Source: Couchioplanes azureus (lineage in GTDB: Bacteria; Actinomycetota; Actinomycetes; Mycobacteriales; Micromonosporaceae). Taken from it: 64,000 bases of DNA. The stretch covers positions 173,924 through 237,923 of the forward strand of contig NZ_BMQY01000004.1 of the NCBI RefSeq assembly GCF_014648355.1. The letters run 5' to 3'. Positions within the stretch are counted from its first letter, which is position 1. Each line of letters starts with the position of its first letter. The notes beneath the pieces were generated by a model, which did no database searches, was not told where the DNA came from, and was given only the letters and a program-made list of their open reading frames with translations. Both the position numbers and the translations under genes were made by a program. Shown piece after piece: positions 46,898 to 50,963 of this stretch.

Positions 46898-47317
46898 ATG
46901 CAGGCCCTCTACACCGCCTCCGCCACCGCCACCGGAGACGGCCGCAGCGGACGCACCCGCTCCAGCGACGGCGTCCTCGACCTGGAGCTCGCCGTCCCCA
47001 AGGAGCTCGGCGGGCCCGGCGGCCAGCAGACCAACCCCGAGCAGCTCTTCGCCGCCGGCTACGCCGCCTGCTTCCACAGCGCCCTCAAGCTCGTCGCGGG
47101 CAAGCAGAAGATCACCCTCACCGACACCGCCATCACCGTCGACGTCGGCATCGGCCCCAACAGCACCGGCGGCTTCGGCCTCACGGTCGCCATCGAAGCC
47201 GAACTGCCCGGCATCGACGAGGCCACCGCCCGGCAGCTCCTCGACGCCGCCCACCACGTCTGCCCGTACAGCAACGCCACCCGCGGCAACGTCGACGTCA
47301 ACCTCACCCTCGCCTGA
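46898..47317 (+). CDS. ohr: Organic hydroperoxide resistance protein Ohr
   Basis: A 139-aa thiol peroxidase of the Ohr/OsmC family. The catalytic cysteines are in GYAACFHSAL and HHVCPYSNATRGN, with QTNPEQLFAAGY preceding the first. It reduces organic hydroperoxides with dihydrolipoyl or other thiols. It forms an operon with ohrR and ends at a strong terminator. Confidence 0.96.
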   Translation: MQALYTASATATGDGRSGRTRSSDGVLDLELAVPKELGGPGGQQTNPEQLFAAGYAACFHSALKLVAGKQKITLTDTAITVDVGIGPNSTGGFGLTVAIEAELPGIDEATARQLLDAAHHVCPYSNATRGNVDVNLTLA

Positions 47318-47324
47318 CACACCC

Positions 47325-47356
47325 GGTCCCGGGCGCGCCCCCTCGCGCCCGGGACC
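47325..47356. terminator. Terminator between ohr and the recombinase gene
   Basis: 13-bp perfect stem (47325-47337 / 47344-47356) with a 6-nt loop between the convergent genes. Confidence 0.8.
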
Positions 47357-47359
47357 GCC

Positions 47360-48313
47360 CTACGGCAAGCGCCCCAGCGCCCGGTTCGTCCGGTTGGCCC
47401 GCACCGCCGCCCGCTGCTGCGCCGCCGTCACCTCGATATACCCCTGCGACGTCGTCAACGAGGCATGCCCCAGCAACCGCATGATCTCCGACGCGTTCGC
47501 CCCGTCCTCCGCCAGCCGCGTCGCGAACGTGTGCCGCAACGCATGCAACTGCGCACCCCGCGGCACCCGGTCCGACACCCCCGCCCGCCGGAAACACGAC
47601 TGCACCAGATACTGCAGGCCACCCCGGCGCAGCGGCGCACCCCGCCGATCCACCAGCAACGGATCCTCCGGGCGTACCCGCCCGAACCGCAGCCGCCGGC
47701 TCTCCACATAGCGCGCCACCACCGCATCCAGCTCCGGCTCGACCGGCACCGTCCGCGGCCGCCCACCCTTGCCCGCCACCTCCACCCGCCGCTCACCCGG
47801 GCGCCCCACCAGCGAACCGGCCCGCAGCGCGAGCAACTCGGACAGCCGCAAACCCGCACACAACGCCAGCGCCAGCACCGCCACGTCCCGCTCCGGCCAC
47901 GGATCCCGCTGCCGCTCGTCGGCGCGGTTCACCGCCTCCAGCAGCCGCTCCGGAGTGTCCTCGCCGCGCAGGGGCTTGGGGGAGGGCACCGACATCCGCG
48001 GCTTGCCGACCGCCGGCATCGGATTGCCGGCGACCACGCCGTCGACGACCAGGAAGCCGAAGAACGAGTTCCAGCTCGACCAGGCGCGGTAGACCGAGGC
48101 AGGGGAGCGGCCGGCGGCGAACGTCGCGAAGGCCGCGCGCAGGGTACGGGGGGAGAGGTCGCGAAGAGTGACGTGCTCGCCGAGCAGGCGCAGGACGGCG
48201 TGCAGGTCACGGCGGTAGGCGAGGAGGGTGTGCTCGGACGGCTTACGCACGGCCCGCGCGGCGAGGAACTCTTCGATCAGGCTTTCGACCGGAATGTCTT
48301 GTTCATCCTGCAT
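47360..48313 (-). CDS. Xer-type tyrosine recombinase
   Basis: A 317-aa recombinase, the length of XerC/XerD. The N-terminal SAM-like core-binding domain (SEHTLLAYRRDLHAVLRLL) is followed by a catalytic domain with Arg in AGLRLSELLALR, Lys in VAGKGGRPRTVPV, HxxR in LHALRHTFATRL, His in LLGHASLTTSQ and nucleophile Tyr in GYIEV. The start ATG lies inside a dif-like palindrome. No phage genes are nearby. With a dif site 450 bp upstream it may act in terminus resolution or use its own site. Confidence 0.93.
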   Translation of the reverse strand: MQDEQDIPVESLIEEFLAARAVRKPSEHTLLAYRRDLHAVLRLLGEHVTLRDLSPRTLRAAFATFAAGRSPASVYRAWSSWNSFFGFLVVDGVVAGNPMPAVGKPRMSVPSPKPLRGEDTPERLLEAVNRADERQRDPWPERDVAVLALALCAGLRLSELLALRAGSLVGRPGERRVEVAGKGGRPRTVPVEPELDAVVARYVESRRLRFGRVRPEDPLLVDRRGAPLRRGGLQYLVQSCFRRAGVSDRVPRGAQLHALRHTFATRLAEDGANASEIMRLLGHASLTTSQGYIEVTAAQQRAAVRANRTNRALGRLP

Positions 48314-48332
48314 AAGGAATATTATGCAGGAA
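48305..48332. repeat. dif-like palindrome over the recombinase start codon
   Basis: 11-bp arms matching at 10 of 11 positions around the centre GGAATA, with inner ends GCATAA / TTATGC. The arrangement 11-6-11 and CATAA/TTATG equals a Xer core site. The recombinase ATG (48313-48311) is inside the left arm, so binding would also block its expression. Confidence 0.7.
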
Positions 48333-48420
48333 ACTCCCGTCTGGCGGGGTGTCGGGTTCTGTCCTTCGCGTCCTTCGAGCTCGTCGTGGCTGCTGGCGTA
48401 GGCGCTTTGCTGGCGTCGCA

Positions 48421-48466
48421 GCCAGCGCCTCCTGGGCCGTGCCTGGAGCCAGCGCCTCCTGGGCCG
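48421..48466. repeat. Direct repeat between the two dif-like sites
   Basis: GCCAGCGCCTCCTGGGCCG occurs at 48421 and 48448, a 27-bp period. The gap 48333-48878 otherwise contains no credible gene; short frames in it are not supported by start signals. Confidence 0.7.
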
Positions 48467-48755
48467 CGCCGTGGGCCGTGCCTGCTCGTCGCGGCCTGCT
48501 GGTGTCGCAGCACGTCGTGGTCGGGCCTGCCGACGTCCGCGCCGCTCGGCAAGGCAGGTGTCGACCGGCCTGCCGATTACTCAAGTGACGGCGCGGGTGC
48601 AGCCTTCTGGTCTCGGGCCGGCACCCGGGCGTGATCTTGCGGACGAGCCGGCATCTTTCGCGCCGTGGAGTGGTGTGCCGGCGGGCCGGGCACCTTTCAG
48701 CTCGCCGGCCGATTTGCCCTCTCTGAGCGCACCCCTTGCGACCGTTTCGCGCTCA

Positions 48756-48783
48756 GGTTTACATAATGTTCATTATCGACCAA
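48756..48783. other. Probable chromosomal dif site
   Basis: Read on the minus strand, the 28 bp contain CGATAATGAACATTATG flanked by TTGGT and TAAACC, that is, an 11-bp XerC-type arm ending CGATAA, a 6-bp centre TGAACA and an 11-bp XerD-type arm beginning TTATGTAAAC. This fits the actinobacterial dif consensus as I recall it, and the XerD arm also matches B. subtilis dif at 10 of 11 positions. It is strikingly AT-rich here. Confidence 0.8.
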
Positions 48784-48878
48784 CACGGTCGGCGGCCGGG
48801 GTCCCCCGCTTTCCTGTCGGACCGTCCTGGTAGAACTGGCGACGTTGGAACACACGTTCGACGGTGAGGGGTGGGTCG

Positions 48879-49973
48879 ATGGCGGCACGGACCGGGGTGC
48901 GAGGGCTCTCAGCGGACGAGCTGCAGGTGATTCGGGACGCGGTGGCGGCCGGGCGCAAGCCGAAGGTGGTGTTCACCGAGTCCGCGGGTCAGATCGCGGG
49001 CCAGCTGGGCCAGGTGGTGGCGCTGACCGATCCGGCGGAGTCGGACGAGTGGGTCGTGGTGCGGTTCGGCCGCGACGAGCTGCCGTTCGCGCCGGCCGAC
49101 CTGCAGGTGGCGCCGAAGGGAGCGACGGCGCGGAAGGCGGCTCCCCCGCCGCCCGCCCCTCCGGCACGGCCGGAGCCGGAGTTCGTGATCGACAAGCCGG
49201 TGGTGCCCGCCCGGCGCGGCCGGTCCGGTGCCTCCGGCGCTCCGGGCGGCACGGAAGCTTCCGGCGATTCGGGGGCATCGGGTGACGGGCGTCGCGTGTC
49301 CAAGCCGGCGCCCGAGGGTGGCGCGGGATCGGCGCGGTCTGCTGGTGGTGCGCCGAACGGACGGGCGAGGTCGCATGTTTCCGGCTCGGCGTCCTCGGCT
49401 CCCCCGTCAGCGGCCTCGGTGTCCCCCTCCGCTCCGCGACCTTCCCCGGGTGCTGGAGCGTCGTCCACGTCGTCGTCTTCCTCGGGAGCCGCTCCGGATG
49501 CCGGGGCGTCGGAAACGGGGCCGGCTACGGCGACGTCCGATGGCCGGCGGGGCGCAGGGGGTAGCCCTGTGGCGCCCCGGGCCTCGGGGATCACGGCTCC
49601 GGCGCCCCGGGCTTCAGGGATCGCGGGTCCGGCGCCCCGGGCTTCGGGCGGTGGGGCTCCGGCGCCTCGCAAGGCGTCCGGCCGGGCGGCGCGGCCGAAA
49701 CCGGTGTCGGAGCTGACCGTCACCCTCGCCTATGCCGAGGGCGAGTGGACGGTGGCGGCCAACCAGGGGTCGAAGGCGCTGGCGAAGCCGTACATCGTTC
49801 GTCCGGCCGAGGCGCTGCGGATGGTGTCTCTGGTCGACGTTCCCGGGGTGCAGGAGGCGGTGGAGCAGATCATGGCTGCCGAGCGTGCCCAGGCGGAGCA
49901 GCAGGCGCAGCGGTTGCGGGCGGAGCTGGCGGAGGTCGAGGCGCGGCTGCGAGAGCTGGGTGAGGCCGGCTGA
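48879..49973 (+). CDS. Conserved-looking protein with two end domains and a low-complexity middle
   Basis: A 364-aa protein. Residues 1-75 form a compact domain (LSADELQVIRDAVAAGRKPK, SDEWVVVRFGRDELPFAPAD) that looks like a small beta-barrel. Residues 75-270 are Ser/Pro/Ala-rich with repeated APRASGI units. The last 85 residues contain SELTVTLAYAEGEWTVAANQ and a coiled coil (AAERAQAEQQAQRLRAELAE). ATG preceded by GAGGGG. It is the first gene beside the dif site. Function unknown. Confidence 0.78.
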   Translation: MAARTGVRGLSADELQVIRDAVAAGRKPKVVFTESAGQIAGQLGQVVALTDPAESDEWVVVRFGRDELPFAPADLQVAPKGATARKAAPPPPAPPARPEPEFVIDKPVVPARRGRSGASGAPGGTEASGDSGASGDGRRVSKPAPEGGAGSARSAGGAPNGRARSHVSGSASSAPPSAASVSPSAPRPSPGAGASSTSSSSSGAAPDAGASETGPATATSDGRRGAGGSPVAPRASGITAPAPRASGIAGPAPRASGGGAPAPRKASGRAARPKPVSELTVTLAYAEGEWTVAANQGSKALAKPYIVRPAEALRMVSLVDVPGVQEAVEQIMAAERAQAEQQAQRLRAELAEVEARLRELGEAG

Positions 49974-50050
49974 CCGTGATCAGGCTCGGCTCGAGTGTGA
50001 GCGGACTCGGCTTGCCGAACGTCTTCCGACGTCGCCGCCCATGCATCGCT

Positions 50051-50187
50051 GCCCTGCCGTCGCCGCCCTGGTGTCGGTGCGCACGCGTCGACGCCCTGGT
50101 GTCGATGCGCACGCGTCGACGCCCAGGTGTCGGTGCCCATGCATCGCTGCCTGTGTCGGCGCCCTGGTGTCGGTGCCGTGGCCATGA
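50051..50187. repeat. 28-bp tandem repeat array
   Basis: Units start at 50065, 50093 and 50121 (GCCCTGGTGTCGGTGCGCAC as model), with partial or decayed units at 50051, 50149 and 50161. The 28-bp period is not a multiple of three and no frame is supported, so it is non-coding. It fills most of the 354-bp gap before the tetR-type gene. Confidence 0.8.
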
Positions 50188-50327
50188 GGACAGGTCCGGG
50201 CCTCACCTACGAGCGAAGTTCGGCTCCACGCGCTGGTCGCTAGTGGCTTGATCCCGAGCGCGTTCTTGGCCCGCCCGGACGCCATCGCCGGGGCCGGGTG
50301 ACTACGGCGTGGTGAACAGCGGCGGTT

Positions 50328-50963
50328 CTACGGCCGAGGTTTGTCCGCGGTGGAGGCGGCGTGGGTCCCGGCACGAAACAGGCGGTCGAGCTGGGCATCG
50401 ATCAGGGCCAGTGCCTCGGCCGGGCTGTACAGGCCGACGAGGATCGGGCCCACCAGGCCCTGGGTGAGGAAGTAGAGGGCGGGTGCCTCCACCTCGGGAT
50501 CGACTCCGTCCCGCAGTTCGCCCAGCCGGGACGCCTCGCGGAAGTTGGCGACCGACACGGTCAATATGCGTCCGTATCCGTTGCGTAGCTGCTCGGCATA
50601 CGCCGGTGTGACGGTCGCGGCGGAGAAGAAGGCGATGTTCACGCAGGCTTCTTCGCGGCCGGCCGGGTCGACCGGGAGCATCACCGCGGTAGCGGCGCGG
50701 ATGAGATCGCGGCGGGTGGGCTCACGCAGCGCGGCGACGGTGGTCTGGAGCCGGGCCAGTACGCGGTCGCGCATGTGCGACAGCGCGAACAACAGCATCT
50801 GCTGCTTGGTGGGGAAATAGTGCTGCACGGTGCCCATCGAGACGCCGGCCTGCTCGGCGACGTCGCGCAGGCTCACCGCCTCGAACCCTTGCGTGCTGAT
50901 GACGGCGAAGACCGCTTCGGCGAGATGGCGGCGGCGCTGTTCGTGATCGACCTGCTTCGGCAC
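50328..50963 (-). CDS. TetR family transcriptional regulator
   Basis: A 211-aa TetR repressor with HTH AVSLRDVAEQAGVSMGTVQH followed by YFPTKQQMLLFAL, and a helical ligand domain. GTG at 50963 (VPKQVDHEQRRRHLAEAVFA) matches the usual start of this group; an ATG at 50981 lies inside an operator. It is divergent from an alpha/beta hydrolase gene with two matching 12-bp operators between them, so it likely represses both. Confidence 0.88.
   Translation of the reverse strand: MPKQVDHEQRRRHLAEAVFAVISTQGFEAVSLRDVAEQAGVSMGTVQHYFPTKQQMLLFALSHMRDRVLARLQTTVAALREPTRRDLIRAATAVMLPVDPAGREEACVNIAFFSAATVTPAYAEQLRNGYGRILTVSVANFREASRLGELRDGVDPEVEAPALYFLTQGLVGPILVGLYSPAEALALIDAQLDRLFRAGTHAASTADKPRP

Follow-up and report, generated by a model that had tools for sequence, protein, structure and literature searches.

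A candidate single-recombinase Xer module beside the chromosomal dif site of Couchioplanes azureus, probably a second resolution system

Results

Organization of the locus

The stretch of Couchioplanes azureus DNA analysed here (the window, 64 kb of contig C4) carries, all on the minus strand, a chromosomal dif site (48756..48783), a second, symmetric site of the Xer type (48305..48332), and the gene for a 317-residue Xer-like tyrosine recombinase (47360..48313) that is linked to dif and is distinct from XerC and XerD. The start codon of this gene (48313-48311) falls inside the second site. A first-pass annotation of the window had covered dif alone, correctly, and overlooked both the second site and the linked recombinase, which together look like a third Xer module. 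The 423 bp between the two sites (48333..48755) hold a tandem duplication of 27 bp (48420-48473, 89% identical).

The dif site and the replication terminus

Actinobacterial dif sites have reportedly been surveyed earlier by Hendrickson and Lawrence. Read on the minus strand, the window site has exactly the 11-6-11 layout, with arms TTGGTCGATAA (48783-48773) and TTATGTAAACC (48766-48756) on either side of a TGAACA spacer (48772-48767), and the inner bases CGATAA, TGAACA and TTATG named in the first-pass annotation agree base for base. That annotation had also described an AT-rich site in a GC-rich background, as we find: 9 of the 28 bases are G or C, against a GC fraction of about 0.71-0.73 in the surrounding 2-kb pieces. 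The 28-mer has no other match at up to three mismatches in the window, and 100 shuffles gave none. Its core, CGATAATNNACATTATG (15 fixed bases), occurs at a single place at up to two mismatches in the 7,612,997-base, 54-contig assembly, in keeping with the earlier expectation of one site per chromosome; the core pattern read backwards is absent from the same 7.6 Mb. Among 60 genomes (this one, 35 of the same genus and 24 of the same order), the core is matched in 57 at up to two mismatches and in 53 at up to one. The resemblance to the actinobacterial consensus also has a printed counterpart: in PMC3025954, the dif site of the Frankia alni dif/XerCD system shares with the window site its 28 bp, its 11-6-11 layout, and the inner bases CGATAAT..ACATTATG.

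The position of dif is best judged from relatives. In ten genomes of the same genus assembled on one or two contigs, dif and dnaA are separated by 0.486-0.523 of the genome length; the value is 0.402 for G006, an assembly of 20 contigs, and G034 (two contigs) was left out because no dif was recognised at its recombinase. In C. azureus itself dnaA lies on contig C1 and dif on contig C4, so that antipodality is not measurable there. Over the 457 kb of contig C4 the cumulative GC skew is weak and peaks at 241,916, some 19 kb away from dif (222,692), which is not an extremum; we dropped the skew of this contig as a terminus locator. In 20 sampled 20-kb pieces of the genome of a relative, G017, mean GC skew changes across dif from 0.005 to -0.018 (p 0.02) and mean AT skew from -0.030 to +0.033 (p 0.008). 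A search of the 457 kb for strand-biased octamers that switch at dif gave a best z of 4.5 among 1844 words, which is unconvincing given the number of tests. The earlier placement of the window at the replication terminus is thus backed by the antipodal dif of the relatives and not by the fragmented genome itself, and the check proposed with it, a genome search plus cumulative GC skew, came out divided, with a single match and a weak skew signal whose maximum is off dif.

Judged by its sequence, its occurrence in one copy, its conservation, and its place opposite dnaA in complete relatives, 48756-48783 is a chromosomal dif. Taken alone this site is ordinary for actinobacteria. It shares with canonical dif/XerCD systems its single copy, its position opposite dnaA in relatives, and the presence of XerC- and XerD-type genes, and XerCD/FtsK-dependent recombination, which is part of the definition of the dif class, is putative here. 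The difference from the canonical case lies in the linked third recombinase and the second site, not in dif itself.

A third recombinase, distinct from XerC and XerD

The 317-residue protein matches Pfam Phage_integrase (85.9 bits), and R156, K182, H257, R260, H283, and Y292, which we take to be the tyrosine-recombinase catalytic set, are invariant in 12 of 12 and 25 of 25 alignment rows. It scores 166 bits against the XerC model (cut-off 335), 154 against XerD (cut-off 330), and 71 against the NCBIfam XerS model (cut-off 267), and by these scores is an ortholog of none of the three. A tree of 32 proteins places the third-recombinase group (15 rows) on one side of a branch with support of 100/99, XerC (8 rows) at 98/96, and XerD (7 rows) at 100/99, with two other recombinases apart; the XerC and XerD labels were assigned by motif, the XerD of G036 is missing, and L176 forms a long branch. 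The best solved relative in a profile search is XerD (E 1.8e-28). An AlphaFold2 model (predicted local distance difference test, 77.2; predicted template-modelling score, 0.57; weak at residues 109-117, 251-254, and 284-294) matches XerA, Brujita integrase, XerD, and XerH at low global template-modelling scores of about 0.3-0.48, and as a model backs the fold class only.

Named relatives put the window in Micromonosporaceae, in the vicinity of Actinoplanes. The nearest named recombinase, 92% identical, comes from Pseudosporangium ferrugineum in a search that may omit this genome and very near ones; the protein of G030 is 97% identical. A phage origin was considered and rejected, as the 31 records found in a phage collection are all below 60% identity, with values of about 28-31% for the 15 rows listed. 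Past the end of the window, some 26 kb from dif, the same contig encodes another Xer-sized tyrosine recombinase (G000:C4:248715-249242, L004; open frame of 338 residues).

XerC- and XerD-type proteins are encoded alongside the third recombinase. In C. azureus, XerC/XerD-type proteins on contigs C3 and C17 score 305 and 288 bits against the XerC model, whose cut-off of 335 is reached in none of the 60 genomes searched, and they group with the other motif-labelled XerC and XerD rows in the tree. Among the matches listed, 31 of the 36 genomes of the genus have at least two further XerC/XerD-type matches above 190 bits, and G010, G014, G016, G019, and G023 have at least one. Matches that span only the C-terminal half raised the possibility of a disrupted XerC in some members of the genus; this was rejected, since seven of eight fetched genes have an open frame in which the two domains are separated by an insert whose length varies. 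For the eighth (G031), the motif was not found in one frame. The insert is of low complexity in L274-L280 (G007, G015, G019, G021, G026, G029, and G035), and the XerC of G035 has a second, smaller one.

A symmetric site upstream of the recombinase gene

The second site has the layout of dif, with arms TTCCTGCATAA (48332-48322) and TTATGCAGGAT (48315-48305) that are symmetric at 10 of 11 positions around a TATTCC spacer (48321-48316), and its pattern is found at one place in the genome at up to three mismatches. All 69 Micromonosporaceae loci have TGCATAA-N6-TTATGCA at up to two mismatches, 59 of them perfectly; most core columns are invariant or nearly so, and conservation falls outside the site. 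In other lineages the two arms shift jointly, to TGGATAA/TTATCCA, TAGATAA/TTATCTA, TACATAA/TTATGTA, CCACATAA/TTATGTGG, or CAGCATAA/TTATGCTG.

For an unbiased test, every ATAA-N6-TTAT within 1.5 kb upstream of the recombinase was taken, with no selection by symmetry. Elsewhere in the named loci this pattern occurs 0 times in 863,427 bases. Leaving dif aside, it is present upstream in 33 of the 62 loci that lie outside the main Micromonosporaceae set. The 28 distinct arm pairs from outside that set (including two dif variants that were retained, from L267 and L268) are symmetric at 138 of 196 outer positions; the shuffled mean was 91 and the maximum 115, and none of 20,000 shuffles reached the observed value. 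By comparison, the dif matches of the main set (n = 60) score 0-4 of 7 for symmetry, 52 of them 0-2, and scanning 974,613 background positions for symmetry yielded eight matches, two of which are real sites. In four loci of f31, a family of another order, the second site lies 329-476 bp before the gene match and therefore not over the start codon.

Two further palindromes were seen. Three f31 loci (L239, L240, and L241), from genomes with no close dif match, carry ACCRGACAGAA-N6-TTCTGTYYGGT 564-794 bp before the recombinase match, and L272, of genus g159, has a perfect 11-6-11 palindrome 1.3 kb upstream.

Linkage to dif across genomes

The genome collection yielded 73 recombinase loci, or 72 after a fragment (L152) was dropped. 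In 69 of these, namely all 69 from Micromonosporaceae, dif lies 293-3146 bp upstream of the recombinase (median 481) in a constant relative orientation; the other three (L148-L150) are from Longimycelium and two Actinoalloteichus. The dif sites of the 69 loci have 0-4 mismatches over 21 fixed bases, and the next-best site has at least six. Within the genus, 35 of 36 genomes including this one are linked within 4 kb, 32 with the core at up to two mismatches and three (L058-L060) with variants of 3-4, and G034 (L069) has no dif within 1.5 kb of its recombinase.

A survey of the family, in which the best eight candidates per genome were scored, found the recombinase at E 1e-90 in 167 of 250 genomes and 20 of 44 genera, including 61 of 61 genomes of the same genus. 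Linkage was checked in 40 of the 167: dif is within 1.5 kb in all 23 picked from the 150 high-scoring genomes, and among all 17 low-scoring ones ten are linked at up to one mismatch and G473 at two, G641 has the recombinase and a dif match on separate contigs, and five genomes of g159 have no linked dif match. The recombinase is also present in 26 genomes of f31, 19 of which have dif within 7.6 kb (G347 at two mismatches), upstream in 17 and in the opposite orientation in 18; the remaining seven have no dif match at up to one mismatch. Given that all 69 Micromonosporaceae loci share one orientation and 18 of 19 f31 genomes have the opposite one, the linkage has outlived rearrangement. In a 6-Mb genome, chance would place a gene within 8 kb of dif about 0.3% of the time, although the linkage cases are far from independent owing to shared ancestry.

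Relatives on large circular plasmids

Relatives of the recombinase were found on 58 plasmid records, from Mycobacterium (32), Rhodococcus (18), Mycolicibacterium (6), Prescottella (1), and Dietzia (1), with 37-41% identity to the window protein in the 30 rows listed. The ten records that were fetched are all circular, of 144-615 kb. Together with L176, L244, and L245 they make up 13 plasmid-type loci. Upstream of the recombinase, nine of these carry a symmetric site whose inner bases are perfect; the site is weaker in L250 and L247, and L248 and L251 have none upstream.

Discussion

We suggest that the recombinase and the symmetric site constitute a third, single-recombinase Xer module beside the canonical dif, probably a second resolution system, and we give this reading a probability of roughly 0.57. 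The module lies beside dif, and hence at the terminus, and since a canonical dif and XerCD are also present, with further XerC/XerD-type matches listed in all 36 genomes of the genus, we propose that it is an addition acting on its own site and not a replacement. That the recombinase would bind the second site is suggested by their co-occurrence and by the lineage-specific symmetry of the arms. The same symmetry is consistent with homomeric recombination, and the location and the plasmid relatives point to dimer resolution as the possible role.

In the model we favour, host XerC and XerD would serve dif, and the adjacent recombinase would serve the symmetric site, contacting its two arms as a homodimer. 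On a dimeric chromosome it would pair two copies of the site and exchange strands across the 6-bp spacer, giving a second resolution reaction where sister termini meet at division. The module could be common to, or derived from, the modules by which large circular actinobacterial plasmids resolve multimers. In Micromonosporaceae, where the start codon falls within the site, binding may also repress the recombinase gene. In its fullest form the model holds that Micromonosporaceae and several other actinobacterial lineages run XerCD/dif plus a homomeric recombinase of the plasmid type that acts on a symmetric 28-bp site of its own, in most cases a few hundred bases from dif, and that selection for the terminus zone keeps the pair there, as a dual arrangement for dimer resolution; we put this tentatively, at somewhat short of even odds.

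Several observations weigh against this model. The coexisting XerC- and XerD-type genes leave no need for a second system. The recombinase is missing at E 1e-90 from 83 of 250 family genomes, and nine of 20 such genomes checked (G450-G486) have dif at up to one mismatch. The other 11 have no dif match at that threshold; in these and in the five g159 genomes dif may be divergent, or the chromosomes may be different. Linkage may also be in part inherited gene order, since the neighbours on the recombinase side are kept as well: five of six in 30-38 of 58 full-length loci, the sixth in five. The outer 4 bp of the arms show no significant covariation inside Micromonosporaceae (2808 of 10,000 shuffles were as good), and 29 of the 62 loci outside the main set have no second site within 1.5 kb, the flanks being short.

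The strongest alternative, which we nevertheless consider unlikely, is that the symmetric site is simply an operator over the promoter and start codon, so that the recombinase regulates its own gene and acts on dif or elsewhere. The overlap with the start codon in Micromonosporaceae fits such a role, as does a -10-like CATAAT inside the site 7 bases before the ATG, which would suit a leaderless promoter. However, in f31 and on several plasmids the site is found hundreds of bases upstream, and the 11-6-11 geometry, combined with the inner bases ATAA/TTAT, is the one seen in Xer recombination sites.

It is less probable still that the third recombinase joins or replaces XerC/XerD at dif, or regulates them. 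Its persistent linkage to dif could be read this way, and a TTATG half-site is common to the two sites, but their arms and spacers otherwise differ, some f31 genomes and plasmids have the recombinase and the symmetric site with no recognised dif, and XerC-type proteins are uninterrupted in seven of the eight genomes checked.

We think it improbable, too, that the locus is the relic of an ancient element resembling the integrative mobile elements exploiting Xer (IMEX), with an integrase and half of an attachment site retained at dif. A recombinase beside dif is the layout of such an integrated element, and on the far side of dif three neighbours are not conserved (0, 1, and 0 of 58 loci; a fourth is kept in 27). 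In contrast to a relic, gene and site have been kept in all 61 genomes examined in the genus and at 69 of 69 loci, and the genome has a single dif match. A current IMEX was rejected, as dif-like sites would be expected to flank it on both sides and there is just one match in window and genome. Between the far-side gene and a TetR-like-looking reading frame lie tandem 14/28-bp GTCG-rich repeats (50030-50181).

Least likely by far is an RNA hairpin controlling translation at the start codon: the stretch folds well (-12.3 kcal/mol, z -5.0), but G-U pairs are below the shuffled level outside Micromonosporaceae (0.03 against 0.069 in 22 symmetric sites), which favours a DNA site, other lineages have the site well upstream of the gene, and Rfam has no family at gathering score in 47000-50500.

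The proposed dif-adjacent module resembles known systems without matching any of them. In PMC5357621 and PMC2731167, XerS/difSL of streptococci and lactococci and XerH/difH of epsilon-proteobacteria likewise consist of one recombinase gene linked to a dif-like terminus site; these stand alone, whereas the window module coexists with XerCD and dif, and difSL is 31 bp with an 11-bp centre, compared to 28 bp with a 6-bp spacer here. XerL/dif of Legionellales, as described in PMC9765430, is also a single-recombinase Xer system with a chromosome-plasmid connection, but it is the only system in that order, whereas ours would be additional. Large circular plasmids carry their own recombinase adjoining its own site, according to PMC5357621; the pairing is the same, and such plasmids also carry relatives of the window recombinase, whereas the window module is chromosomal and at the terminus beside dif. 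The reviews consulted describe bacteria as relying on XerCD at dif or, alternatively, on a single linked recombinase with a site of its own. Our literature searches, which reached neither preprints nor most subscription papers, gave no description of such an arrangement, and as far as that literature extends the module seems not to have been described previously.

The pairing of dif with a linked gene offers a terminus marker for draft genomes of these actinomycetes, and the recombinase and its site could serve as a genetic tool. If the model is true, families that keep both systems would indicate that recombination at the terminus can be duplicated, and they would offer a natural experiment on what keeps such a site within the dif zone. 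It would also suggest that resolution modules are exchanged between plasmids and chromosomes.
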